DNA from: Neelides folsomi
Lineage: Eukaryota > Arthropoda > Collembola > Neelipleona > Neelidae
DNA length: 64,000 nt
Reading direction: 5' to 3'
NCBI GenBank assembly: GCA_034687125.1
Contig: JAQGBZ010000069.1
Coordinates: 164,659 to 228,658 of the forward strand
This document shows, piece by piece, positions 10,260 through 53,392 of the stretch. Within the stretch, counting starts at the first letter, position 1. Each line of letters begins with the position of its first letter. Made by a program: the position numbers and the translations under genes. Under the pieces are notes generated by a model that saw nothing but the letters and a program-made list of their open reading frames with translations, was not told where the DNA came from and made no database searches.

Positions 10260-11967
10260 ATGAAGAAAATATGTGGAAATTTATTTGCTAGTTTTTTAAT
10301 TGTTCAATATTGCTACACAATGCCTGCAAATGAAATGAATTCAGAAATGCAACTTTCAACTGGATCTCTCGATGGTGACATTGACATGAACTTCAACCCA
10401 GGAGTAAATACATAAATACAAAATAGCTCTTTTAAGCCAAGATTAAATTGATTGAAAAATTTAAAATTTAACTTTGTGCTTTGTCTAATGTTAGTAAAAG
10501 TTATATTTTATTTAGCGTTTTATGGTGGATCCTGAACTGAACGATAGAGGAATGTCTCAAGAAGAATCTTCAGAAGAAAGTCACACAAAAGAGGGAAGTC
10601 GCGGTCCACATATTCCAATTCACAGCTTAGAAACCTTTGTGGCCAATTCCGGAGACGATGATGCCTATTTTATTGCAAAGGAGTCCGAGTCAATCGAAAA
10701 GGGAATAAAATACAGTATGAGGAACGAAAGTGCAAATAATGCAATTACGGATCCAGTAAGGAACAAAGTATATTTATTTAAAATAATCTTATAATTCTTA
10801 TGTTAAACCTGCATATGAATTTGGTACAGACTGTATCAGTTTTTTAAATAAATTGTTCTCATATTGTATATTTGTTTTTCTTAAAATTTAAGGATTCCAT
10901 TTCAAGCAAATTGGAAAATCTTGAAAAGTTAATTGAGGATTCTACTCTTATCTTAAGTCGGAATTTAAGTACGATGATTGCCAACTCTGAAGCCAGATTA
11001 TTCGATTTACTAGTAAAATAATTATATAAATTTTTATAAAATTAATTGATTGTTTAGAATGTGTTTCTTTTGTAAATAGAAAACAGATACTTTGTCAGAA
11101 ACGACTCTTGGTTGGAATGAAGCGTCTAAGAATTTCAGCGAATACACTGGCACGCTTGTGTACTACGACAATGAAGTGATGATTTATTACGATTTCTCCA
11201 TTAGACGTGCGGGTCCTTCCGTTCCCTCTTGGCCTTTTAAGCTCCTCAGCGATATTTGGCATTATGCGAAAAAGACTTTTGGGCCAATTGGAAGACCAGA
11301 CGACTCGGGCCGTCTCACAGCACTTTTCACATATGACTTTACTCATCCAACATGTCTTTCAAGATCAAGTTTTGCTGGACGGTCAAGTTTAAGAAATTAT
11401 CTCGTTTGTCCGCTTGAAGATGATTGGATTATTGGTTCATACAACACGAAATTGAACCCAATTAATCACATCGGGAAAATCCTGGCAAGTTCTGCACAGG
11501 GGATGGATGGATCTCCTTGGTTTAATCTTGGAGGATGGATAGGATTTGCTCAAATATTCCATTATGATGTTTTGCTAGCTCTTGGGAAAGAAAGGGAAGC
11601 TGCAATTTATGCAGAGAATTCAAAAAGAACGTATGTCCAACCCGTTGAAGGAGATATTGTGAGACTTGATAAATTTTGGTTCAGAGATTGGTATTTCCCG
11701 ATTTATACTCAATTCGGGGGAACGAAAGTTCTCAACACTTTCCTCGAATTAGTAAAGATACATTTCCCCAAAGATCCTCAAGATCCAACTAAATATGAAA
11801 GGAATATGACAAAAGGAGAATTCATTCATTTTTGGAGTGGTGCGGCCAATGCGTACTTGAAAGGGCATTTGAGGAAATTGCTAAGATATTGGACAGACCA
11901 TGATGAAGAGGAATTGAGAAATGCGACAATTACATTTAAAAATATTGTTTACGGGAAAAAAGTTTAA
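10260..11967 (+). CDS. Secreted protein with a bacterial-type zincin-like domain lacking the HExxH motif
   Basis: Four exons: 10260-10403, 10516-10755 (or to 10767), 10893-11012, 11080-11967; the sum is in frame, about 463 aa. N-terminal signal peptide, then a Glu/Ser/Asp-rich low-complexity linker, a short helical exon and a ~290-aa C-terminal domain. From memory, that domain resembles secreted proteins of Actinobacteria and some other microbes that carry HEIGH...GSPAFG...WFRDWFYPIY...GEFVHFWSGAAG. Here the equivalents are DGSPWFNLGGW, FWFRDWYFPIYTQFGG and GEFIHFWSGAANAYLK, but the metal-binding helix reads NHIGKILAS, so the catalytic Glu and second His are absent. It is therefore probably non-enzymatic. 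The match could not be searched. Introns and composition show it is resident in the animal genome. Confidence 0.7.
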
Positions 11968-12071
11968 AAGTATTTTGTGATCATTTCATGATTTTAAATA
12001 TTGTTTAACTTATTTTAATTAAATGATGTAAAATATAAAATGAATAAAAAATGAAATTTTATTTATATTTT

Positions 12072-12798
12072 TCAAGGGCCACCAGGTCCACCGAAAGGTC
12101 CACCAGGTCCACCAAATCCACCACCGTATTTCCAATACAAATATCTAAAAAAAATTAACAATCAGATATACTATAGTATAATATACAAAATCATATTACA
12201 GATATTTATAATGGGAATGGGGGTATTTTCATATACATAGGTAATTAGTTAATTAGATAAACGAATATGGAGTAATATGCATACTATACTGTATTATGTA
12301 TACTGTACTCGTACATTATTATATTTTTATTCTTCCTATTTTAATAGCATGTTTATTTATAATTAGTTGACTTACTTTGCCAAAAGAAACTTTCCCTTTC
12401 TTGTGCCTTTGTTCATATGAGCGTTGAGATCATCTGTTGCATTTGCAGCCATGGCTAAATAGAATTTATGGAGATCCATTCCCCCATCAGGGCTTTTGAG
12501 TTCTGGAGGAATGAGAAATGGAGAAGGCGTCATTTTCCCGGACTCCAATAAAGGAGTCATTTTCCCGGATTCCAATAAGGAAGTCGAATTAGGCTTGGCA
12601 TCTTCCAATGAAGAAATAGAGATGACCTGAAAGGAACAAAAACATACAAATTAAATTTTTGTATTAAATCTTAATGCTTTGAAAGTAAATGACAATAAAG
12701 TACATAATATTTAATAAATACATAATATACTTATATGTTAAACTATTAACACTTACTACAACCAAAAGGATTTGAGCTCCTAATAAAAATTTGTGCAT
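12072..12798 (-). CDS. Small secreted precursor with decapeptide repeat and Gly/Pro-rich tail
   Basis: Three exons on the minus strand (12757-12798, 12376-12626, 12072-12144) join exactly in frame to 121 aa. The start opens a hydrophobic signal peptide (MHKFLLGAQILLVVVISIS). The mature part has a tandem repeat of LLESGKMTP (twice, around residues 30-50), a basic stretch GTRKGK that could be a processing site, and a C-terminal tail of GGP/GGPF repeats. No family is recognised. It could be a peptide-hormone-like precursor, an antimicrobial-type glycine-rich protein or a cuticle/silk-type component. The Gly/Pro tail is in a separate exon. Confidence 0.6.
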
Positions 12799-13604
12799 GT
12801 TTATCTTATAAGAACTTTAAACTTCCAAAATAAAAAACTTATTTACAAATACTGATATTTTGAAATTATGGTTCACAATTGCTCCAAGATTTTGAATGTG
12901 AGGATCTTTCGTTTGTGGTCCCTTATATACTCCTTAAGGTTCGAGCGAAAGCTTTTAAATAAATGCATAATAAATAGTACCTGCAAGGTAAATTGTAAGT
13001 TGATGGTACCTGCAAGGTTAATACGATCATTTACAGAGAAAGTGTAAACACATTTAAAAGTCTTTAACAATATCCCTCGTTTTATTCTTAATTAATTCCA
13101 ATTCACAATGTCGATACAAAATGAATTTCATTTCTACGCATTTTAAAATTAAATAGACTAGAATAGGTATATAACATATATCATATACATACGTAAAGGA
13201 TATAAGTAGAAATTCTTCATTTAAAATTCTTTATACTGCAAATGATTTATTTTGTCACATTATAAACTTAAGATGGGAAAGTATGAAATAATATGCTATT
13301 ATTTATTCTAACATAAATATGATATCGTGAATTGTAATTTTTATACATTACAGTGCTAATCTCAACTCAATTATATAAATATGATATACCTGTATGTATG
13401 GTACATATTGATAATCTTTATTTGAGTGATTGAGATGCAATTGTTTAATTTTCATTATTGTACTATAATCAGTACTCTTATCAAGCATTATCTCACAATG
13501 TCAAATTAGTATTTCAGTTCAAAAGGAATGCTTTAAAGTAATATTTTTCATTCATTTTAAAGTCATTAAAGTATTTCCAACAAAAAAGGAAAAAAATCAC
13601 TAAA
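12799..13604. other. Divergent intergenic region
   Basis: Lies between the minus-strand small precursor and plus-strand aminopeptidase A, so it should carry both promoters. It contains two copies of a short motif, gtacctgcaagg, near 12980 and 13010. No coding exon is seen. Confidence 0.4.
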
Positions 13605-16600
13605 ATGAAAGAATTCCATATTTTAATATTATCACTAGCCCTATTGCTGGTCAATGCATCTCCACCGCTATTTTATGAAGAGCCAGAAAATTATTTCACA
13701 TCGGCCGTTCCAAGATTTAACCGCGCCAAAAATTCGAATTTCCGTTTACCAAATTCAGTTATCCCTATTCATTACGATGTTTCTTTAATCCCTATTTTAG
13801 ATGAATCAGAAAATAGTTTCACTTGTCCTGGCGAATTAACGATTCTTGTAAACTGCACAGAAAGCACAAGCTTAATTGTGCTCCATTCACTTGCAATTGA
13901 CATTGATTTTGTTTCAACTGAGGTAATAAGTATATCTATATTTGACAACTACATATTTTATATATTCGCTTGATTTATTATTAAAATATCACAATAGGTA
14001 GTAGATTATATAAGTAATTTTATGAATGTGAATTTTTATGAATTAATGAATTATTATTTACAGATTACAGCTGTGTCTGATGAAACCATTATTCCCGTAA
14101 CAGATCAAAAATACAATGGAGAAAATGAGTCATTTGAAATTGTACTTGAACAAAATTTAGTTGCAGGGCAAGAATATAAAATCTATCTGAAATTCGTGTC
14201 AGAAGTCAACGGTATCCATCTTGGACTCTACAGAAGTAGTTATGTGCACACTGATGGAAATACAAGGTTTAAGATTATAATTTTGCATTACTTCTTTTAA
14301 TCCATGCTGGTTTCCTTCAATGCTCTTAATATTACTAAAAATGTGCTGTAGTATTTCTTCATTAAAGACCTATCAGCATGTTATTTTTTCATTATTCTAG
14401 ATGGCTTGCAGCTACTCAACTCCAAGACAAACATGCAAGAAGAGTTTTCCCCAATTTTGATGAACCAGCAATGAAAGCAACATTCACAATCAGCTTGGGA
14501 AGAAACGAACGACACACAACTCTTTGTAATATGGAAAAGAAAGGAAATCCAGAACCAATGTAAGCATTACTCATCCAATTATTCGATAATCAAATAATTC
14601 ATTGACATTATTCACAATCTGACATTTTATCAAGTGTCCTAAATTCCTGTAACTTAACTGACTTAACACGATTTGTTATAAAACCAATTAATTAAGCTTA
14701 TTGTATGTACTTTGAATGTAAGTTTAACGATTATCGTCTATGCATTTGTAATCAATTTTACAATATATTCGATCAGCACTTAATGCTAATTTCACTCATA
14801 CAATCAAAATACACGTGGATAATTGGCATTTTATTTTCAAATTCAAGTGAAGGACGAGATGGATGGTTTTGGGATCATTATGAAGAAACTCCTATCATGT
14901 CCTCCTATCTCCTCGCTATTATTGTGTCTGATTTTGATTATGTGGAAGCAAAAATTGACTACTACGGAAAACCCGTCATTGTATGATAAAACATTATCTT
15001 TGAACTTTTTACAAAGAAATTATACATAACAAGTTACTCGATCAAACATGAAATAGCGTATTATAAAATTATAATACTAAAACTGTATATATCTAATAAT
15101 TAATAAATTGCAGAGTTGGGCCACACCCCAACAGATCAGCGAAGGAGCTGGGGATTATTCCACCGACTTATCTGTCCGGAATCTTCAATACTTTGATCAA
15201 CATTTGGATCTTCTGTATCCATTAAAAAAATTAGATTCAATTTCAGTCCCTGACTTCCTCTACGGAGCAATGGAAAATTGGGGTCTTGTCCTCTACAGAG
15301 AAACAGCTCTTTTGGTTTATCCAGGAATCTCAACAGAGCTGGAAAGAAAAAGAGTCACTTATGTCATTTCTCATGAACTTGCTCACTTTTGGTTTGGAAA
15401 TATCGTCACTTGCGGATGGTGGAATCATATTTGGCTCAACGAAGGATTCGCAAATCATTACGAATATTTAGCTATGGCTGAACTCGTGCCCGAATATCCC
15501 ATCGTGGCTTTAATTACAGACTCGGTCCATACAGCTCTCAGATTCGATTCCGGACCCAATTCTGTTGCTGTTGTGTCGGACGAATCCGCACCATCGACTA
15601 TCATTTATGACAAAGGAGCTGCCCTGATCCATATGATGAAGGGAATGATTAGTGAAACCACTTTCTTAACAGCCATAAGAAAATATCTTAAAGACAAGTA
15701 AGTTTAACACTAACAATAAGGTTTCAGTATACCAATACAAATATTGTAATTATTGCACCAAAAGTTGAAACTGTTGTTTATTCATGTAATATTATCCCAT
15801 CTTCAAATCTTGAATTAATGTTTAAATGTTTATTAAGCTCTTATGGGAATACATACCAAGACCAATTATTTGAAGAATTGACAACTCAAGCTCACGCTGA
15901 TCAAAAACTGAACGAGACTTTGGACATGAAAGAAATCATGGACACATGGACACTACAGGCTGGTTATCCATTAGTAAGATGTGGACGAGCATCACACGAC
16001 AGAATTTTTGTTTCACAGGTTGCTAATACTCATTTCCCTCTCTTCCTATAATTGATAATTTTATAGTCTTATTCTTTAGTGATAAAATAATTTAAATACT
16101 TAATTTAAAATAGGAAAAATACTCTCACATGCCAAAAGCTACAAGAGATTTAAACCCGTCAGAAATGTGGTGGGTCCCAATTTCGTATGCTACAAAAGGA
16201 GACCCAAACTTTTCAGAAGACAATCAATTACCTAAAGTATGGATTCCTAAGAATGTTGCAATGAAAATCATTGAAGTTGAAAATGCTGACGAATGGATTA
16301 TTCTCAATACTGGACATAGAGGTTTACTTAACATTTACATTTTTTCTTAACTTTTAAAGATCTTAAAGTTAACCAATTCTTTACATCTACTTTATTAGGA
16401 TTTTATCGAGTCTTATACGATCAACATTTCACCAATTTAATTGTCGAACAACTCGATTCTGACCATAAAGTTATTGACTCATTGAGCAGAGGACAATTGT
16501 TGCACGATTGTTTCAGTTTTGCTTTTGCAAGTAATTAGCCAAAAAAATATTTATATATAATGTGTACATAATATTATATGTAGATAAAGAGTGAAATCAT

Positions 16601-38645: not shown

Positions 38646-40774
38646 TTTTGTACTTTTTACCACGCTAACTGAGAGAACTGGCGAAGAAGAGTGTGGCGGG
38701 TTGTTATTTATATATTCACATCTTCCCCTGAACAAGCAATGCGAGATGAAGAAATATTTATTTATTATTGGCCATTATTGAACGGAACTTCCATTTCTTC
38801 ATCTCAAGTGGGAATGAGCAAACAATGGGAAAATATACAAACAGGGACTCAGTAATTATTTTATATGAATGAAGAGAGCAGGAGGGAATTAACCTGCTAA
38901 TTGAAATGATGAGGAGACGCTGTGTTTAAATTTTATGATCAATGCCGCTCCTTAAATCCCCTGACCATGTGAAGCTCGAATCTTTCAAACTTTATGTCAA
39001 CAGTTGTGAAACTTCAAAGAGGCATCGTACTTTCATATAACAATACCTAAGGGATGTTGGGTCATTTGGCTATAATTAATACCTTATTCTTTTTAAGTTT
39101 CATTCATAAATACAGGAATAATACATACAAAATTTAATGCACCTGGGTCGGCTTGCAATATAAAGTGAAAGGAAAGGTTTAATGAAGATCTGTGTTTAAC
39201 TTATTTATTAAATTAAGCTTCATAAAATCATAAATAAATACACGTACTATACTTAAATTGTTTGTCAAACGTAACTGCGTTTTGTTAGATAGTGGAATGA
39301 GAACAACTTTCTCTTCATGTTAACCGGCTATGCTAACCAATACCTTCATAAACAGATAAACCAAAATATTTATTTTCATTCTTACTTGTTTAGAATTTAA
39401 AATAATAATTAACATCAGTCCTGCTAACTAGTATCTGTATATAACACATAAATATTAAAGATGTACTATATTTATTTATTTAAGTTAATCACCTTAAACG
39501 TGCCCGATTTTGACCAATTCATAATCTTATCTACTCTAGTTACACCTACACAGGTATACATTTGAGCTGATTAATAAAACTTACCTGTAGAAATAACATT
39601 CAAATTATGTTAGAATAAACAATTCAATCAAAGCATTTTATATTTGTAGAATAATCGTTTAAAAGTTCGGTCAAGATCACACAGAATGAGATTCTTCTGA
39701 TTGTCAAATACCTACATTATAAATACTATAAAGAGCATGTACATTGTACATAGGCTCTAACTCATAAATAGAAATCTGTAAGGATATTTTGAGTAGAGGG
39801 ATTTATTCCCTCAAAATATAAAATACTTTAATATTTATTTAATTTACTATATTAAGTATATTAAGTATATGCTGATGCTGATATGTTTATCTTTAGTTGA
39901 TTGTTTCTCTCACTCTCACTCTAATCACACATTCGAATTCCAACATGATTATGATTTATGATTATGATACATCTTCACATAATTATCTTTATTTAATAAT
40001 TATTCAATAAATATCATAAAACAATATTCATGTATATTTTATATTTCTGATATCTTTGTATGCATTGTATGAACAAAAACCTATGTATGTATGTAAATAA
40101 TTAATTGCTTTAAAATAGTGTAAATTGTTCAAAATAAAATGTTCGCAATACATATATTACAAAAATATATTGTAATACCTATGTATTGTAGGTATATTTC
40201 ATACTAGGTATATAAAAATATATTCTTATACAATACATTGTACATTGTAGTAGCGTGAAGTTGTTTTGTAAATTATTGTGCATGAATTGAAATTTGAAGT
40301 AAACTTCGCCAGTATCATCAAAATGGGAATCATAAAGAAATAAAATAACGACGTGATGAACCTTTCCTTTTAATTGGCATTGGGATTGGGGTTTATGTCG
40401 AATTCAAACTTTGGCGATACATAGCGGACTGGTACAACAATAAAATGTAATCAGTGCGATAAAATTTGAACAAAGCAAGCTTCAATTAAAGACCAACCTT
40501 GGTTTTATGCATGTGGCTTTAAAGTATTTGCAATTAAATCCATTATTACTAAAGGACTTTATGCTCTAAATGATTATGAAAAATGAATCAATCCTAGAAA
40601 TTAATACGTGTGCGTACTTGAAAGATAAGCAAAAGCTCCCTATTACAAACACCATATATGTATTCTTTTCAGGTGGATTAATGATATTAATTCATTTACT
40701 AGAGGATCGGAAACACTGACGTGTTTCTGCTTTTCTTAAATTTTTCTAATAATTTATTGTGTTAAACCAAAAGA
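38646..40774. other. Gene-free AT-rich region upstream of aminopeptidase B
   Basis: About 2.1 kb with no supported exon on either strand. Several short self-complementary tataggtatat-like runs (around 40180-40210) occur but no element boundary could be set. Confidence 0.4.
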
Positions 40775-43700
40775 ATGTTTTGCCTTCAGATTCTTTTGGC
40801 CTTTGTTTTGGTTGTTCATGCAATTCCTCCACTTCAAGATGATCGACCACGAGGAATTCTCTCAAAATTGGGAGTCGAAAATCAAGAAATGAAATCAACT
40901 CAAATTTCCCCTCGAGAACGTTTGCCAATTACTTGTCTTCCGACGCATTACGAGATATTTTCAAGAATTGTTCTTGACCAAGGAGATCCAGATCATGAAC
41001 AATTTAGCGCTTCGGGTAATTATTCAAAATTATTACATTAAAAGGCTTCATCTTTGAATCTACCTAATACGAATGATTTTAAACGTTTTTAAAGGGTCTG
41101 TCACAATCCATGTAACATGTCAAGAAGCATCAAACGTAATTGTCTTGCATACAAATGGACCAATATCTTCAAATTTTAAAGTAGGAATATTTACCTTTAA
41201 CTCAAATATTTCTAAAAACTTTTTAATCTCAATATAATATGAATTTATATGTAGATAGTTGTAGAAGGCGACGAAGAGGAGTTGCCCAATACAATTGAAT
41301 ATGATACAGAAAAGCATTTTATGATCATCACATTCGAAAACAATTTGGTTGTGGGAGAAAATTACTCAATTAGCATGGACTTTACTACAGAAATAAGGAG
41401 TAATTTAGATATGACTGGTCTTTACTACGGATTTTACGATAACCCTGATAGTGGAGTGAGAGAGTAATTCAATATTTAATAATTTCTTTCTTTACTCATA
41501 ATAATTATTAAAGCTATACATGGTTAGTGTTAAATTGTATTTTTAATATTTAGGTATCATGCAACAACACAATTTGAACCAACCTATGCTCGACAAGTGT
41601 GTATAAAATAATTATAATCTTTCTTATTCTCTCAAGGAAAATGACTCTTTTGTTGAATTTACCAATTCTTTCTTACTAGTGGTTTCCTTGCTTTGATGAA
41701 CCTCATCTTAAAGCAACATTTGATTTAAAATTGGAAAGGATGGAAAAATATAATTCGATTGCAAATACTGAAATTATTGCTACATCCGAACCTGTGTAAG
41801 CTGTCTTCTCACTTCTCACTAATCTACAATTTAATATTAATAATGACTAAATTTTATATTTGAAGTGATGGATGGATAACAGATACTTTTGCCACAACAC
41901 CAAAGATGCCAACTTATCTTCTTGCCATTTTAGTTTCAAATTTCAAAAACTCAACTGATAATGATAATTTTGGGAAACCAGTTAGTGTAAGTAAACAAAT
42001 GCCAATATGAACGACTTTCAATTAAATCAACAATTTGCAATATATTAGTATTGAGAAATTTAAAAGATATTTATGTTATTATGTTTAATACTTTTAGACA
42101 TACGCTGCTCCTAATTTCATAGATAGAGGAGATGGAGAATATGCCGCTGAACACGCTGCAAAGATTATAAAATTCTTCGAAGATTTTTATGTCGAACCTT
42201 ATCCAATTGTTAGTTTGTAGATATTATGCTTAAATACCTAATACCTACTGCATATTATGTACTGTATAAATATGTAGTTTAAGTATTTCTTTAACATTAC
42301 TTGTATACTCACATCATTTTTCTTTTATAGTCAAAAATGGATTCGACTGCATTGCCACATTTTAGTGCAGGTACTTATTTATTTATATATATATATTATC
42401 ATACATATTATATTTATTGTATTAAAATATATCGATATGATATGTTTTTAAATATTTTTAACCGATTCATTTTCAATTACTTTTTAAATCGAATTAAATC
42501 AAAATTTTCCCTTAACTTTCAGGAGCAATGGAGAATTGGGGTAATGGTCCTTTGTTTAACTATCAATTTGATTAAAAACTTCAAATATTTTTTAATTTTT
42601 TCTAATTCTTTTGTTTTCACGTTTTAGGTCTTAACCATTACAGGTAATACATTTTATCATGTACATATTATTGCATCGTTTTATGCTTGCAATTATTTAC
42701 CTATAGGTGTATTATTTAAGCTTAAATTTTTCTATTCAATATTAAACAGAGAGGCGCTACTTTTATACAACAAAGATGAATCAACAGAAGGAAATCGATA
42801 CTCGATAACATCAGTCCTTGCCCATGAGCTTGGTATGAGCTTAATATAGAGTAGATCTGTATATTTTCAGTATATCCATTTAATTTTATTAGCACGCTAA
42901 AATAACTTATATTTTGATATTATTTTTAGCTCATCAATGGTTCGGAAACTTGGTAGGACACTTATTCAAGCTGTATTAATTGAATTCCTTTCATTGTCAG
43001 ATGAGTTTGAATTATTTTGTGTAATGTGTCAATAGGTAACATGCCGATGGTGGTCGCATATTTGGCTCAACGAAGGCTTCGCAACATTCCTTAGCTATCA
43101 GGGTTTGACTTTTAATGATTATACGAACATCAATTATTTACATATAATTTCATTCAAAAATATATCAATGCAAACAATCATATAATCTTCAGGTGTAAAG
43201 AACGTAACGCCGGAGTTTGAGGCAGAAAAGATTATTGTAAACGACGCATCTCAAAATGCAATGAGATTTGATGCCACCCAACGATCACACCCCATGGTTA
43301 TGCCGGAAACACTTTTGCCGCATGAAATTATGGCAATGTTCAATACCATTGCTTATGACAAAGGAGCATCTATAATTAGAATGATGGAAGGATTCTTAGG
43401 AGAAAGAACTCTTCAATTAGGACTTCAAAAATATCTAAAAGCGATGTAATTTAATCAAATTTAAATCAACATTATGTCTTATTTTTTTTTAATCTTTTTA
43501 CATATTTAGGGAGTATGACGCAGCCCTACAGGATGATTTATTCTACCATTTGCAATTGCAAGCTAATGACGATGGTGTAGATCTTCAAGACTTGACTGTC
43601 AAAGACATTATGGACACATGGTTAAATACATACATATTTTTATAAGATAATATTAAGCAAAATGGCTCATAATCTTTAGAAGATAAAATTATTTGTACTA

Positions 43701-46520
43701 TTATATTCATAAGATTTAATATAAATTAGTATCTAGAATAAGAGATACATTATATTTCATACTTTATTTCATGATATTAGGACTTTACAAAAGGGATTTC
43801 CTTTAGTGAGAGTGAGCACAGCACATACTGGAGATCATGTTTTTATTTCACAAGTAAAGTACTTATTCAATTAATAATAATTAGCAAATAATACTAATTT
43901 TCAACTATTACATAATTACCAACATTTATGTACATAATTATATTGAATGATAACGAGCAGTATTAGTTATTAAAATGAACTTTAAACTACCAGGAAAGAT
44001 TTGAAGACTATACGAGAAGAAGTGTGAGAGAATTAAATCCAAATGAACTCTGGACAATTCCAATCTCAGTTGCCACACAGGATTCTCCAGACTTCACAAT
44101 TCATTCCCCTTCGTTTTGGCTTAAAAAGAATATTGCTCTAACCACCCAGACATTCAATACGTCCCAATGGATTATTCTTAATAAGGATGCAACCGGTTAA
44201 AAACTAGCTAATTATAACATTATAATACTAGCAAATGAATTATTATTAATATTACATTTCATTCATTCAATTAATACTTTTCAAATTCAGGTTATTTCCG
44301 AGTACTTTATGATGGTCCTTTGAACCAACTTATCGTAAATCAAATGGCCGAGGATCCATCAGTGATTAGTGCTTTAACAAGAAGTCAGATACTTGACGAT
44401 ACCTTCAATTGTGCATGGCAAAGTAAATGAAATTCTGAGCAAAATCATATAAATATGAATAAAATTAATTATAAATAGTATCAGTATTTAAGTATGTTAC
44501 ATACAGTAATGTCACGAATTGAAAATATTTAAATAACAAAATATGATAAATAAAAACAGGATATACGGGTATTGAAAAAGCTCTTGCTCTGACTGTAATG
44601 CTCGGAAAAGAAACAGAATTTGTCGTTTGGGATACTTTCTTTTTAACCATGAGAAAGGCCTTTACAATGTTCAGCAATACAGGATTCCATTACTTAAGGG
44701 TATTTATAAATAAAACATGATTAATTTCTCAAACTCATGAATATTTGCTACAAAATATTTACCAAATTAAAAAAATATTTAAGAATGATTTTTAATTATT
44801 TAGGACCATTACCTGAATATTATTGAAAATGCATTAAGGGCCATTAATCATGAAGAACAAGATGGAGAAAAAGGAAACATTTTATTTTTGCGTTCTCAGC
44901 TCTTAGACTGGGCTTGTTCAATGGATTCTCAAATCTGTAAAGATCATGCGAATAATCTTTTTGATAAATGGGAAACTAATAATGAAATGTACATAATTTA
45001 CTTTAATAACATACCTAGCCAATTTTAATATTTTTATAGAATGATTATATTTACAAAATAATTTGTAGATAAATACTTTAAATTATAGTAAACTTTCTAA
45101 TTTTTTAGAATTCCAATTAATCAACAAGCTGTGATGTATTGTGCTGTTGTTGCTGCAGGAGGATTCGACGCTCATGACTTTGTTTACAGTAAATATGTTG
45201 CTCAATCTCATGCTGCTCATAAAACTAGACTTTTGAATGCTCTTGCATGTTCTAACGAAATTTCACTTCTTAATAAGTGTGTAAAACTAAAAATTTACCA
45301 TTTTTTCACAGTTTTCATTTTAATCAAATGAAATTCTTTGATAATGATAATTCCTATGTTAGAATGATGGAAGATGCATTAGATGACACCATATTTCCAC
45401 CCGCTATGGTTACAACTATTATTCAAAGAGTTGCAATGAATTCAATCGGAAGAGCTTCAACATTTAGGTTCATCCGATCAAGAATCACCGAACTTCACAC
45501 TTTTAACCCGGACATTATTCCAAATGTAATTTCAACTCTTGCTGGATATTGGAACACCCAACTGGAACTTGATGACGTAAAACATTTTATTTTCACTAGT
45601 ATTTTATTAAATAATTATAAGGTATATGTATTTTTGTATTTTATGGCTATTTGAAATTTATAAAACAGGTAGAGGGTAGTACTCAAATGTCAGCTCTTAT
45701 CAAAGAATAGGAGTTTGCAAAAATAAGATTTATAGAAATAAGGCTAACTCAAATACCTTCTAGCCTTCTACTAATAGGTTCATGTAATGTAGGATTTTTA
45801 CTTAGAGCTATTATAGATTATAGCATACTGTCGACTTATAAAAAGTAAAGCCAATGGATTTCTCATAAATTTAATTATATAAGTCGACAGTAGGAACATA
45901 CAATAACATTAAAAAAAATTTATTTATGCTTTTAATACTATATTTCCGGATGTAATGTTGAATCAAATAAGTACCGATTGTTGAGAAAATATTAAAACAA
46001 GTACCAAATTGGGTACAATAAAATTTTGCTCATAGTATTTGATTTAATTTTAAAAGCTACCGTTAACAGACCCATGAAAGATTAAAAATGAGATTCGAAG
46101 GGAATAATAAAATAATGTCCAAATGTATATAAAGGAAGGGCCCTTGTCGCACATCATAGGGTTTAGTATTTTTGAATCGTATACAGTACAGATGTGAATA
46201 TTATACCTATACATACACATACCTAAAAATGTGAATTCCAATTTAGAGTACGAGTACGATAGATGTATAGTATAATACTTAATACATATTATACCATTTC
46301 TAATTTTTAGTTAAAATAACTATCGCTACTTGAGGTTCAATGTGCGAAACTTAGTTGAAGTATGTATTTCTAGCTCCTTTCCTGTATTGAGACTATGAGG
46401 GATATTCTTCCAGAAAATATCATAAACAGATTACTAACCTCGGTGAGTGCAGTCGAAGAAAACATTTATTGGATGGAAGAATTCTATGCCCCAATGAAAA
46501 CATGGTTTGAAAATAATTGA
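40775..46520 (+). CDS. Secreted M1 zinc aminopeptidase B
   Basis: Twenty-three exons sum in frame to 932 aa: 40775-41015, 41095-41180, 41255-41463, 41554-41596, 41680-41795, 41866-41986, 42098-42208, 42331-42370, 42523-42540, 42628-42643, 42750-42832, 42930-42952, 43036-43102, 43193-43445, 43510-43620, 43781-43853, 43994-44195, 44291-44422, 44560-44699, 44804-44988, 45109-45276, 45363-45576, 46374-46520. Three micro-exons (16-23 nt) fall around the active site. Signal peptide MFCLQILLAFVLVVHA; GAMENWG; HELAHQWFGNL with the zinc-ligand Glu in WLNEGF; catalytic Tyr in IAYDKGAS. The chain ends WFENN without a hydrophobic tail, so it is probably soluble. Tandem with paralogue C. The last intron (45577-46373) carries a small hairpin element. 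Confidence 0.95.
45826..45892. repeat. Short hairpin repeat in aminopeptidase B intron
   Basis: Perfect 15-bp inverted arms (tactgtcgacttata and its complement) are separated by 37 nt. It is likely a tiny MITE fragment or chance palindrome. Confidence 0.5.
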
Positions 46521-46933
46521 TTCTTTATTATTAACTTTGAGAAGATTTTTAAATGAATAGAGAATAATACTCTTTATACAAAATGTAAATTATTGAATAA
46601 AAAATATTATAAAAAGTTTGATGGCTTATTCATTTAATTATAATTGATAATTGATAATCAATAAATGTTTATTAATATGATAAAATTCTTTCGCAAATGC
46701 AGACAAAAGCATTTTATTGAAAACAATGAATATCTACAGATTATGAACCATGTATTGGAAGTATAATGTTTATCATTAATTGTTTAAAATTTAAACACAA
46801 TTATCAGTATAATTGACATTCTAAACGATCTTTAATAAACCCATTAGGTATGTAGATTACTTAATATAATATTTACTAGGTATACATAATTTAATTTCCA
46901 TTATATGATATAAAGTATTGATACTTTAGTGTG
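46521..46933. other. Spacer between aminopeptidase B and the MULE
   Basis: AT-rich; includes the probable 3' UTR of aminopeptidase B (aataaa near 46598). The left target duplication of the MULE occupies its last nine bases. Confidence 0.5.
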
Positions 46934-47704
46934 GGGAGTCTAATTATATATCGTGAATTCATACCCCTTATACACCATATCTCGTAATTGTTACATCGTA
47001 AAATTCATATTTCTTTGGTATCATATCTCGTATAGGCCAATTCTCGTATATAATATATATCGTAAATAATATATCTCTTTAGTAATTTACTCGTAAATTT
47101 ATTTCACGTCTAGTATTATATCTCGTAAAATATATGAAGAACACTGAACAAGTGAAGAACGCACTTGCAATTTTCGATTTCTGATGGTTCTGGTGCATGA
47201 TTGGGAAAATCATTAACTAGCAGGACTTCGTTTTCTTCTAATGATGCACTTGTATTTGATGTTTTAAAACGTCCCATACATGACTTATTGTATTGCACAC
47301 ACTTCCACTGAATTATTCCACTAATTATCATCTTTTATGTATAGTATATGAAGCCTTCGTGTACAAGCTGTTTTGCACTTTTTTGCCAACAAACTTTAAA
47401 GGCATTGTAAAGAATAAATTTAATGCTTTCTATGGAATGAATTATAAAAGACTAAAGAGCTGAACAGTAAGAAAATTGGGCTGTTTTATTTTTACCTTTT
47501 GTTTTGAACTTTGTGGCCTTTTACCTTTTAATTATCAACAGCATTCATATTATGTAGGTATTCATATTATTAAAGTAGTAAATGTATAAGATGTATTTGA
47601 GATATGGATCTACGAAATTAATATAATTTTTACGATACGAGATTTAAGAACATCGAGATATGATGTATAAGGGGTATGAATTCACGATATATGATAATGT
47701 ACCC
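46934..47704. mobile_element. Mutator-like (MULE) DNA transposon fragment with FLYWCH zinc-finger relic
   Basis: A 771-bp unit bounded by inverted repeats of about 50 bp that start ggg and share the block atatcgtgaattcatacccctta. It is flanked on both sides by the same nine bases, tttagtgtg (46925-46933 and 47705-47713), a target duplication of the size typical for Mutator-like elements. Subterminal copies of an atatctcgta motif recur inside the left arm and inverted in the right. The minus strand at about 47116-47395 encodes, across one frame shift, a FLYWCH-type zinc finger (FVGKKVQNSLYTKASYT; WKCVQYNKSCMGRFKTSN; NDFPNHAPEPSEIE), a domain commonly carried by MULE-type elements in animals. 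No transposase catalytic core remains, so it is a non-autonomous deletion derivative. Confidence 0.85.
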
Positions 47705-47917
47705 TTTAGTGTGAATTGTTAGCATTCAATGCCATTTTATCAAAATTATTTATCATACTCTTTTTAGATAAAATAGCGGCATAAATAGCTTTTAATAGCT
47801 GATAATAGTTTTTTTAATTCACCTTTTCTCAAGTAGTGTTCAATCCAAGTATTTATTATAGCTAACTAAGAACAAGACACAAATATACATCTGTATTTAA
47901 CTATTTAATTTGTTGAG

Positions 47918-50900
47918 ATGCATTTGGGAAAATTTCTTTTCCCCCTTCTCTCTTTCGTATGTTTCAGCAGTGGAACTCCACCATTACAAATAGAGAAAGA
48001 AAGAGGATTTCTATCAATTCGTCCTCAAAATGAAAAAGAGGATCTTTCTGCCTTTGATATCAGCCCTCGATATCGACTCCCGAATTCAATCATTCCAAAG
48101 CATTATGATGTTCAGCTCAAACCCGTTTTAGACGAAATTGAAAATGAAGAAAGATTTACTGCTCCGGGTAAATTGTCATTATGTTATTGAAATTCAATCA
48201 GGATTGAATATAATATGAAATTATTCCGATTGTTTTGTATAAAGGACATGTCAGTATTGACATTGAGTGCCTTACGAATACAATGGAGATCATTTTGCAA
48301 AGGAATGGACCAATAATAAATAATGATTCTGTTCGGGTAATCATTTGAAGAATTTACTATATAAATTAATATTTCAGAAACAGATAAAACAGATATTTAC
48401 TATTCCTGAGCTTTTTAAAACTACCATTCATATTTATAAACAGAGACTAATTATAATCTAGGTATGTCGTTTGAATGTGCATAATATGTATTTTAGGTAA
48501 CTCATACAAGTGGAGAAGAGATCGTTATAAAAGGTTTTTCCCTTGACTTGGAACTCCATTTTTTTAGAATCCTTTTATCAGAGGAATTACAAGAAGGAGA
48601 ATTTTATAATATTCAGATGGAATTTAAAGCTCCAATCGTAACAGATCCGGATCAAGCCCTTTGGGATGGTCTTTATCGAGGACATTATATCGATCCTATT
48701 AGCGGAGATACAAAGTAAATAATATAATGCATAACATAAATATTATACGATCGTATTATACATTAAATGTGCTAATGAATACATAAATAAGTACATATTT
48801 TCCATTTGGATATTTCAAGAAATTATTTAACAATTCTTTAAAGACTTTAAAGTTAACGTGTCTAGTACTATTTATAAGGTATACAATGTATTGAAACTCA
48901 TTAAAGAAGATTACTTAATGTTAAATAGATATTTAATGGCTTCGCATTTTCAACCTCATCGAGCCCGAAAGGTTTGTTAAATATTAATACTGCAATTCTT
49001 CAAAGTGAATGTAAAATCATTTAGTATTGGTTGAAGCTCCCAATTTTAATTCATATTATTGCTTAATGTCAAAAAGATCTAAATTTTAATAGGCTTTTCC
49101 ATGCTTTGATGAACCTCATTTGAAAACAACATTTGACATCAAAATTTTAAGACGTGAAAATTACACTTCTAATGCGAACACTCATCTTATAAGTTCTTCT
49201 CCACCGTATGATTCTACGATTTTTATACATTACAATACAAAATATACTTATTGTTGGTACATAAATATTTTATTACTTATCTTATATACCCCTATACAAT
49301 TCCCGTGATTTGTAATATAATTGTTTAGGGATGAAAACGGGTGGATTACAGACACATTTGACAGGACTGTTTTAATGCCTGTGTACCTTATTGCATTTCT
49401 TGTTTCTGACTTTAAAAATTCTACAGATGAGGAGACATTTGGAAAACCAGTTAGCGTAAGTAATGAAAAAAGAATTATTGATGAGATTGATGACATTTGA
49501 GTTTGAATATTCCACAATAGACTCTCGCCGCACCTCATTTAATTGATCGAGGTGATGGTGATTATGCCGCTAAACACGCTGCCATGCTTCTTAAACATTT
49601 TCAAGAATCTTACCTTCAAGAATATCCTTTAGTAATTATTTTTTTAAACTTAATATTGTTAGCTTATCTCAAACTATCAATCAATCTTTTGTTAGACTAT
49701 TTTATATTTAATACTAATAGTTCTATTTTATAATATTTATGACCATTTATTTATATACCATTTCTTTTTTCATTCTGATAAAAGAGCAAAATGGATTCTT
49801 CAGCTTTACCTCAATTTCGTCCAGGAGCAATGGAAAATTATGGTATTAATAATTAATAACTGCAAAATAATGACAGAAATATATCAATTTTTGATCATGA
49901 AACAAATTACAAAACTAACGTTGTCAATCTTCTCAAAAAATGTTTTTATTAAAATTTTAGGATTGAATCACTACAGGTCAGTAAAAATAATATTTCAAAT
50001 AAAATTTATTTTATTCAAATGAGAACTAAAAGTAAGTCCGTTTTATTAAATAATTAATTTATTCATTAAAAGAGAAAATTATTTACTGTACAACAAAGAA
50101 GAAACTTTGGAAAGCAGCAGATTCACTGTGACATCAATTTTAGCTCACGAATTGGGTAATGCTTATATTTATAAAGATACAATAAATGTATGTAGAGTAT
50201 ACGTCCATAGGTCTTAAATTTAAAAAAATCTAACTTTTTAACTAAAAATTCATATTAACATCAATGTTAACTATTAACTAGATGCACAGTATTTGTTAAA
50301 TTGCCTCACCAATTTCATTTTTTATTTGACATTTAAATAACTTTCATCTTTGGTTTATTTCAGCTCACCAATGGTTTGGAAATTTGGTACGTATCAAACT
50401 CTCTTTTCCACACTGTTCTCACATTTTCCCTTGATGTTCCGCATTAATGAGAAATGAGAACCCAGGCTTAATAATAAACGCTCAACCTATAATACACCTG
50501 TACATATCTTACTACATATAAATACATAAGTTATGGTATTGTTTTACATAGGTGACCTGCGGTTGGTGGTCTGATCTTTGGCTCAATGAAGGATTCGCCA
50601 CATTTGTGAGCTATTTAGGTAAATGAATATGTTACGATATAAAGATATAACTTACAATAGGAAACATTCAGATAGAATCGTTAGGATCTTGTTAACTGAA
50701 CCCACATGTTATTAGGGAAGGAAAAACATAAAATCCCAATAATAATACAGAAATATAATATTATTATTTTGGTACACACAGTATACAGTTAAAGTAATAT
50801 TGGTAATAATAATATATTACATATAAAATATTCCATCCTAACTTGGGGGATATGATGAATTTATTCAGAATAAAGTTTTACTATTTTAAAGGCGTTAAAG

Positions 50901-53392
50901 CCGTAGCTCCGGAATTCGAAGCAGAGATCATCATTATGAACGATGCATTCCAATATTCAATGCAATTTGACGCGGAAGATTCAGCTCCGTCTGTAACAAT
51001 GCCAGATGTGTTGACACCGGTGGAAGTGAGCAGCATGTTTAATAGGCAAAGTTATGAGAAAGGAGCTTCTCTCATAAGAATGATGGAGGCCTTCTTAGGA
51101 GAAGCTACGTTTCAGAAAGGCCTTCAAAGATACCTCGAAGCTATGTAAGTAAATATACAATTACAAAGTTTTCCTCTCTCCTTTTACCCTTTACGTGACA
51201 AAGCGAACTTTTTAAATTTGTTACAAAGTTAATTGGATTTATTTAATATGCGATTTTTAATTACAAACTATGTGCATGATTACTTTTAATAATGGAGCCA
51301 AGTTGAATAATACAGAGTTTCATAGGAAGTACAATGCTGCGTTTCAAGATGATTTATTTCACCATCTCAATCTTCAAGCTCAAGAAGATGGAGTTTTGGA
51401 AGGAATGACAATCAAAGAAATAATGGACACGTGGTTAGTTTTAAAAAATAGAATTATTTTTCCCTTTTCCGTTTCTTTTGACGTTGTTAGATCTGTTTTA
51501 AATCGATTTTCAGGACCCTTCAAAAAGGTTTTCCATTGATCCGTATCAGTAGAGGAAGTTCCATGAACGAGATTTATATTACACAAGAAAAATTCACAAA
51601 TTATGTCCCAAGGAGAGAACGCGCATTGAATCCAAACGAATTGTGGAATGTTCCAATAGCAATTGCAACTCAACAGACTCCCACATTTGCCAATCACACC
51701 CCAAAAATATGGTTGAATAAAACCGTAGCTTTGAAAAGTGCCGAACAAGATATAAGCGGATGGATATTTGTAAATCCTGATGCCACAGGTATTGGAATAA
51801 TAAAAATAAAATACCAATAAAACATACCACTATAATAGGTATAAAGGTTTTATGTTACTTTGCCTTTGGATCCTAGGGTATTATCGAGTTCTTTATGATG
51901 CCCATCTCACAGACCTTTTGTTGAAACAATTAAAAGAAGATCCGAGCATTATTAGCGAAATCAGTCGAAGCCAACTATTAGATGATTATTTCAATTCAGC
52001 ATGGCAAAGTATGTAATTTTATCATATTGAAATTAGTTTGTAGTATTAAATAATCTAATTATTGTGTGTTTATACTTCGAAATTTAATTAACATTCACAC
52101 ATTATTTGAATTGTTATAAATAAAGGAATTTCATGATTAATTAATTATTATTAGGATATATTCAAATTGAAACTGCACTTGATTTAACTGTTCTTCTGGA
52201 AAGCGAAATTACGATTGTAGTTTGGGACACATTCTTTACAAATATGAGAAAATCATTTACTATGTTTAGTAACAAAGGATTCATATATTTAAGAGTATGT
52301 ATTCTATTAAACATTAACAAGAATTTTGCAATTTCAATTACTATCCACTATTTGCTCCAATATTCAATGTTAATTATTTGATTTTAATCCTTTTTGCTTA
52401 ATAATATTTATGTAGAACCATTTCATGGGAATAATTGAAAATGCTTTGAATGCCATTGGTGTGGAGGAGAAAGTTGACGATAAGGGAAGTATTTTGCTGT
52501 TAAGGTCTCAACTTTTAGATTGGGTTTGTGCATTTGATTCTCCTATATGCAAAAATTATACCAATTCACTCTTCGATCAATGGGAATCGGATCCGACAAC
52601 AAACCCGTGAGTCATTTTTAATCTGTCGGTCACTCATTAATTGTGCATTTGGTGAAATATAGAATTCCACTTAATCAGCAAGCTGTGATATACTGCGCTG
52701 GAGTCGCAGCTCGAGGATTCCAAACTTACGATTTCATTTTTAACCTTTATAAAACTGAAACTGTCATAGGACAGAAATCACGACTGTTAAATTCTCTTGC
52801 ATGTTCAAATGAAATAAGTCTCCTTGCCCAGTATGCGTCATTTTATCATCATTAAATTTTTTTCGTTCATTTTTTAGTCTTATAATTAAAATTAAATATG
52901 AATTTTAATAAATTCAGAATGCTTGAAGATGCTTTGGATGAGAATAATGGATTCCCGAGAGTTGACGCAATTACTGCGATTCAAAGAGTCGGAATGAATT
53001 CTATCGGCCGTGCTTTAACTTTAAGATATCTAAGAAACAATATTACGAAACTTCACGATATTGATAATAATTTAATTCCAAGTGTTATTTCAACATTAAC
53101 TTCCTATTGGAATACACCACAAGAAAAAACTGATGTAAGCTATGAAATTGATAATAGAATATTCTTAATGTTAAGGTTTAAGGAGTGACCTTTATTGAAA
53201 ACTTTCCATAAATTACCAAATTATACATTTTTTGTGTTTTAGCTTGAGACATTTATTGCCGAAGCGGAAACCGCTGAACTTCCAGAAGAAATACTTTCAA
53301 GACTAAGAAATTCAATTGGAATGGTTGATGCAAACATTTTATGGATGGACGAATTCTTTGAACCAATGAAATTATGGTTCGAAAAAAACTGA
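47918..53392 (+). CDS. Secreted M1 zinc aminopeptidase C
   Basis: Twenty-one exons sum in frame to 944 aa: 47918-48167, 48245-48336, 48497-48714, 48929-48971, 49093-49205, 49329-49455, 49521-49631, 49785-49842, 49961-49976, 50073-50155, 50364-50386, 50552-50618, 50892-51144, 51326-51433, 51514-51788, 51877-52008, 52155-52294, 52416-52606, 52663-52830, 52918-53134, 53243-53392. Signal peptide MHLGKFLFPLLSFVCFSSG; exopeptidase motif GAMENYG (Tyr where A and B have Trp); HELAHQWFGNL and WLNEGF zinc site; catalytic Tyr in QSYEKGAS. The C-terminus WFEKN has no GPI tail. It shares most intron positions with B, but two introns present in B (inside the GAMEN segment and after the MDTW segment) are differently placed or absent. 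A tandem duplicate of B, intact. Confidence 0.95.

Follow-up and report, generated by a model that had tools for sequence, protein, structure and literature searches.

A gluzincin-like domain of probable bacterial origin with a lost zinc site in a secreted-looking protein of Neelides folsomi

The 64,000-nucleotide stretch of Neelides folsomi DNA analyzed here (the window; C69:164659-228658 in a genome of 75,104,828 bases on 840 contigs) contains a plus-strand gene at 10260..11967 that raises two questions, namely whether its C-terminal domain derives from bacteria and what has become of the zinc site expected in such a domain. An original prediction, made from the letters of the window, had described it as an actinobacterial zinc-peptidase domain that was domesticated in an arthropod and is no longer catalytic. 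Our best explanation, which we hold at a probability of about 0.7, is a secreted-looking protein whose C-terminal domain came from bacterial extracellular gluzincin-type peptidases by horizontal transfer, with subsequent expansion of the copies, the window copy being a non-catalytic binder. In this reading, the protein is a pseudo-peptidase that derives from a bacterial gluzincin family without a name.

A bacterial-type gluzincin-like domain in an arthropod gene

The predicted gene span and the strings quoted for it are present exactly in the sequence. The gene reads as one continuous frame of 463 residues, from an ATG at 10260 to a stop at 11965-11967, across four exons and the introns that had been proposed: three GT..AG introns of 112, 137, and 67 bases, every one between codons.

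10260..10403, plus strand: exon 1, 48 codons, with the start codon and a hydrophobic, signal-peptide-like N-terminus (MKKICGNLFASFLIVQYCYT); open frame, GT donor at 10404
10516..10755, plus strand: exon 2, 80 codons, an acidic/polar linker without a Pfam family
10893..11012, plus strand: exon 3, 40 codons, a short segment ahead of the domain, probably helical as judged by eye
11080..11967, plus strand: exon 4, 295 codons and the stop, the entire gluzincin-like domain according to tblastn, AlphaFold2, and the M1/M30 fold matches

The signal peptide was likewise judged by eye, and this signal-like start suggests that the protein is secreted. A Pfam scan (E up to 1) of the N-terminal 168 residues, which include 11 of the domain, returned no family.

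Searching 72,556 plasmid records with the 295-residue domain (tblastn) yielded three matching records, of which the one with most coverage (91%) belongs to Streptomyces sp. NBC_00334 (8e-29). The encoded protein (WP_328661737.1), annotated for fibronectin type III, is 32% identical to the window domain, and it is found at 2e-46 when a paralogue from contig C215 serves as query. In the reverse direction, a search of the arthropod genome with a Chitinophaga domain as query retrieved the window gene at 6.5e-29. At the sequence level, the likeness to bacterial proteins is far beyond chance, as the original prediction had anticipated for the exon 4 translation. Its actinobacterial emphasis did not hold: of 46 loci in bacterial and archaeal genomes, collected by a pattern-based scan that is not a census, 40 are from Bacteroidota by record title (including Chitinophaga, Pedobacter, Mucilaginibacter, and Flavobacteriaceae), three from Actinomycetota (L015, L016, L059), and three from metagenome-assembled genome contigs labelled Planctomycetota, Thalassovita, and Clostridiales. 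The domains of the contig labelled Planctomycetota (L027) group with those of Zunongwangia (L031) inside the Flavobacteriaceae part of the tree, and the bin label may therefore be wrong. Evenly drawn samples of the respective phyla contained the domain in 1 of 396 genomes around a Streptomyces, the centre genome being that match, and in 3 of 395 around a Chitinophaga, the centre genome among them. Viral contigs gave 61 pattern-matching stretches, none encoding a relative.

Altogether 60 bacterial open reading frames (ORFs) were found, and 50 were kept for alignment and tree, one of them (L012) from the plasmid collection. The ten dropped ORFs are fragments or merged hits (L013, L014, L036_1752, L057, two of L058, L059, three of L060); HExxH occurs in L036_1752, one of L058, and one of L060, and no such motif is visible in the available stretch of the remaining seven. 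Among these, L014:2983-3354 (Fischerella plasmid) and L013:3001-3207 (Streptomyces plasmid) are partial pieces, N-terminal and C-terminal, respectively, that are perhaps decayed copies. A Pfam scan of ten chosen whole bacterial members found F5/8C or CBM_6 over cut-off in eight; L043 has F5/8C below cut-off, and L022 has neither module. Among these ten, L015, L016, and L036 exceed the fn3 cut-off, and L022, L028, and L036 carry a sorting tail for secretion. In the relatives L028, L054, and L022 the domain is joined to an assortment of modules (CBM_6, beta/gamma-crystallin, fasciclin, F5/8C), and this suggests that domains are often shuffled around the bacterial peptidase.

The window domain matches no Pfam family (E up to 10) and no NCBIfam family; its best hit in a PDB sequence search is unrelated (E 0.78), and a profile of the bacterial members retrieved only two PDB chains, also unrelated (E 0.45 and 0.5). 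Peptidase M1 (PF01433) matched neither the window domain (E up to 10) nor 26 bacterial members (E up to 1). For peptidase M90 (PF06167), whose cut-off is 26.2 bits, the Streptomyces plasmid member scored 13.6 and one of the 26 reached E 0.075, with no match for the window domain; the NCBIfam family SprA matched a single member of the 26 at 0.0031, which we take as chance, like the M90 match. We further noted nothing on this gluzincin-like family in the literature, as far as titles and the starts of abstracts tell, and HEIGHIVEG, HEVGHIVEG, WGDSKWAE, GEFVHFWSG, HEIAHIVEG, and HEVAHIVEG do not occur in a literature text whose scope leaves out most subscription journals and all bioRxiv preprints.

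Predicted structure places the family nonetheless. An AlphaFold2 model of the window domain, built with an alignment of bacterial relatives (the structure alignments took in 26 and 27 chosen sequences), reached a predicted local distance difference test score of 85.2. Overlay by VIA-align, starting from a Foldseek ranking, matched the model to M1 and M30 peptidases, a positive outcome for the overlay on zincin folds that had been proposed; the match is to the gluzincin catalytic-domain fold and is not specific to M1. By predicted fold, this family, which has no Pfam or NCBIfam entry over cut-off, would belong among the gluzincin peptidases.

Five arthropod copies and the zinc site

The genome of the arthropod contains five copies of the domain on four contigs: the window copy (C69), one on C215, a tandem pair on C237 (L003, L004), and one on C334; this number is a lower bound, since the own-genome search scores only the best candidates. 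The four paralogues, one with an intact motif, were absent from the original prediction. Sequence identity between the window domain and its four paralogues is 32, 24, 21, and 25%. The C215 copy retains HEISH and the Asp, and the other three paralogues read NEMSQ, HGMSK, and KYMFQ. In four of the five copies, the domain is intronless and lies in one open frame; the C215 domain has one intron. The C215 gene starts with a signal-like segment followed by a ricin-type lectin ahead of the domain (RicinB_lectin_2 2.6e-12 and Ricin_B_lectin 3.4e-8, both over cut-off). With single-sequence phmmer, a weak test, this lectin found no counterpart at E up to 1 among the 60 bacterial ORFs of the family or, at E up to 0.01, among all 1,203 ORFs of their loci, and the ten bacterial members scanned with Pfam carry no ricin family. 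For the C237 copies (L003:2436-3188 and L004:2392-2763, minus strand), the scanned upstream parts have no Pfam family over cut-off, and their N-terminal parts differ from those of the window and C215 copies.

A full HExxH is present in 41 of the 50 aligned bacterial rows, which are secreted-looking relatives as predicted, and all 41 of these intact rows have an Asp at position 25 (counting the first motif His as 1), 20 residues past the second His. The third ligand of thermolysin has the same spacing. The corresponding places in the window protein were located by the alignments:

11464..11478, plus strand: NHIGK, where bacterial relatives have HExxH; the residues for zinc binding and catalysis are gone
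11530..11538, plus strand: GGW, where Asp-Ser-Lys is otherwise invariant; the Asp, presumably the third zinc ligand, is missing
11815..11832, plus strand: GEFIHF, a conserved family helix retained in the window protein, Glu and His included

In the ungapped alignment, NHIGK differs at all three motif residues and the Asp place reads LGGW; with a one-residue gap, the first His could be kept, leaving at most one of the three motif residues. The zinc site of the window copy is gone under both alignments, in line with the loss originally predicted. Where intact members have HE[VI]xH and an Asp 20 residues past the second His, the window has NHIGK ... LGGW; judged by sequence, the protein is a homologue of the bacterial family outside its intact peptidase set. 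It has the sequence features of a pseudoenzyme, with the catalytic residues lost and the predicted fold and open frame kept.

The loss extends beyond the motif. Across the 41 intact bacterial rows, 59 columns reach an invariance of at least 95%; of these, the window copy keeps 5 of 20 near the motif (from 45 positions before to 40 after it) versus 29 of 39 elsewhere (Fisher p 0.0006). The same counts, near and elsewhere, are 14 and 31 for the C215 copy, 12 and 25 for L003, 9 and 19 for L004, and 4 and 26 for L005, the fifth arthropod row in counts and tree. When the three motif columns are excluded, the window copy keeps 5 of 17 (p 0.0026) and L005 4 of 17 (p 0.0039); C215, L003, and L004 are without contrast. 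By this sequence measure, the window copy and L005 have the pattern of a constrained scaffold with an abandoned active site, and L003 and L004 have diverged throughout.

Two further residues set some of the arthropod copies apart:

11353..11355, plus strand: Cys 92 (domain numbering), one half of a Cys pair common to the window copy, L003, and L004
11407..11409, plus strand: Cys 110 (domain numbering), the other half, with a putative disulfide to Cys 92

The pair lies 18-19 residues apart in the window and both C237 copies. Two Cys residues 15-22 apart occur in none of the 50 bacterial rows; the second Cys column is Cys in ten of them. The shared pair suggests that these three copies descend from one ancestor that already had the disulfide.

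Origin and fate of the domain

In a maximum-likelihood tree of 55 rows, a branch with values of 85/89 (not starred) has four arthropod copies to one side, and the long-branched L005 stands beside the clade of motif-less bacterial rows (81/73). These nine rows (L027, L031, L043, L050-L053, L055, L056) form a supported clade (99/98), and the tree shows three or more changes of motif state. We favor a horizontal gain followed by expansion and by shared or repeated motif loss, which is likely but not proven, and the direction of transfer was probably from bacteria to the arthropod.

Several points weigh against this interpretation. The tree lacks an outgroup, its arthropod branches are long, and L005 stands apart in it; a tree holding all five copies together is equally good (log-likelihood 0.20 higher, p 0.51), so that a single arthropod clade is neither rejected nor shown. 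Because the branches are long, neither donor nor date can be named. Of the domestication originally proposed, the bacterial kinship stands (8e-29 to Streptomyces), without a donor or a single arthropod clade. Since 9 of the 50 bacterial rows are motif-less, the loss might predate the transfer for some copies. The homology searches covered collections of bacterial and archaeal genomes, of plasmids, and of viruses as well as the arthropod's own genome, so that the domain may yet be widespread among animals or other eukaryotes. The fold of the window model is not independent of the bacterial relatives whose alignment fed it, the border between near and far columns was set after the alignment had been seen, and among the other motif-less copies the contrast appears only in L005 and not in L003 and L004. 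The functional side draws on sequence and predicted structure.

The domain could instead belong to an old eukaryotic family, the arthropod copies being vertical remnants and ancient transfer accounting for its sharing with bacteria. The high divergence of the arthropod copies (21-32% identity between the window copy and the others) and their long branches are consistent with this and argue that entry into the arthropod lineage was not recent. We nevertheless consider it unlikely, as the relatives found in the collections searched are bacterial and patchy and the domain has no intron in four copies and one in the fifth, observations that make vertical descent somewhat less probable. That the window copy came from a bacterial side group already devoid of the motif appears more doubtful still. 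Motif-less bacterial rows do stand beside an intact copy in L027, L031, and L043 (Bacteroidota-type contigs), and two of them read SEIGK or SQIGK, resembling NHIGK, but the window row lies outside their clade, which only L005 adjoins on its long branch, and it shares its Cys pair with L003 and L004 rather than with them. Intact and motif-less copies also occur on one contig, about 8 and 28 kilobases apart, in L029 with L057 and L032 with L056.

A persisting enzyme with an altered metal site or another chemistry, for example through the Glu and His of GEFIHF, would explain why the domain retains Glu 247, His 250, and Asp 163 at places that are invariant in the bacterial rows compared. This seems very improbable, since at most one of the three HExxH residues is left, and the Asp and further invariant residues near the site are gone; moreover, 8 of 9 motif-less bacterial rows retain this Glu and 9 of 9 this His, which fits a structural role. 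Bacterial contamination or a pseudogene, suggested by the intronless, bacterial-like domain, is barely credible: the gene shares a 228,658-base contig with myosin, M1 aminopeptidase, and hemocyanin-family genes, its frame is open through four exons, and the third-position guanine-cytosine content of its last exon (0.342) lies within the range of seven neighboring coding stretches (0.276-0.544).

Under the favored horizontal origin, entry of the family into the arthropod lineage would have been followed by an expansion to five or more copies and by the acquisition of introns and of new N-terminal parts. The bacterial members, with their carbohydrate-binding-type modules and their sorting tails, suggest that the ancestral activity was cleavage of extracellular proteins or glycoproteins, and the C215 protein, with its HEISH...D site and ricin-type lectin, looks like a lectin-guided version of it, probably an active glycan-targeted peptidase. 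The window copy appears to have kept the fold and lost the zinc site and many surrounding residues; it should consequently hold no catalytic zinc and cut no peptide bonds. Its most probable mode of action is binding: the scaffold, stabilized by the putative new disulfide, would hold a peptide or glycoprotein, or pair with the probably active paralogue, outside the cell and without cleavage. More tentatively, and with the odds against it, a captured bacterial gluzincin might have become a small secreted system in which one lectin-guided active peptidase is accompanied by at least four dead, partly disulfide-locked sisters acting as decoys, inhibitors, or partners on the same targets. One intact and four motif-less copies in a single arthropod genome make live and dead copies comparable and would offer a direct case for a bacterially gained peptidase turning into a binding protein.

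Genomic surroundings and known gluzincins

The arthropod host that had been predicted is apparent from the window itself, which encodes a muscle myosin, a hemocyanin/phenoloxidase-family gene, and an M1 aminopeptidase. The best solved relative of the myosin is Mhc_X1 (7kog), followed by 3jbh and isoform U (8u95), which we take to be from water bug, tarantula, and fly, respectively. Aminopeptidase N-like genes stand in a row at 13542-16048 and 40766-53185 (plus strand; a Peptidase_M1 match at 15081-15698, the rest by eye); they share the fold class of the gluzincin-like domain, with no sequence relation seen. By eye, 12060-12800 (minus strand) encodes a small protein that looks secreted, repeats an LLESGKMTP segment, and has a Gly/Pro-rich end. 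Elsewhere in the genome, a squalene/phytoene synthase domain occurs in two long frames of 560 and 553 residues, C468:37385-38233 (L085:1375-3057, minus strand) and C468:23073-23864, the first with about 235 extra N-terminal residues without a Pfam match; the best ORF of the search matched SQS_PSY only. Squalene synthase is not known from arthropods, and these frames may for this reason be another acquired gene.

Among known proteins, the fold matches include the M1 aminopeptidases IRAP, APN, and LTA4H and TFIID entries with TAF2, at 5-12% identity in the alignments listed; the matched TFIID chain is presumably TAF2, which we take to be non-catalytic. The bacterial relatives space their ligands as HExxH-19-Asp, versus a presumed HExxH-18-Glu in M1. 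Lugdulysin (peptidase family M30) and AM0627, which its PDB title describes with a PSGL-1-like glycopeptide, resemble the domain at the fold level with no sequence-level PDB match, and the window site appears dead. Compared with the bacterial extracellular gluzincin-like family, the window copy is homologous across the domain and has the same predicted fold, but it lacks HExxH and the Asp, carries the Cys pair, introns, and acidic linker, and has no F5/8C, FN3, or CBM module. The bacterial motif-less paralogues share both the domain and the loss of HExxH with it; unlike the window copy, they form a clade of their own and have no Cys pair, and of the four scanned, three exceed the F5/8C cut-off and L043 stays below it. 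By analogy, the proposed arthropod set of live and dead copies would parallel some Bacteroidota with a live and a dead copy side by side; if this parallel is true, non-cutting copies have a selected role in the family.
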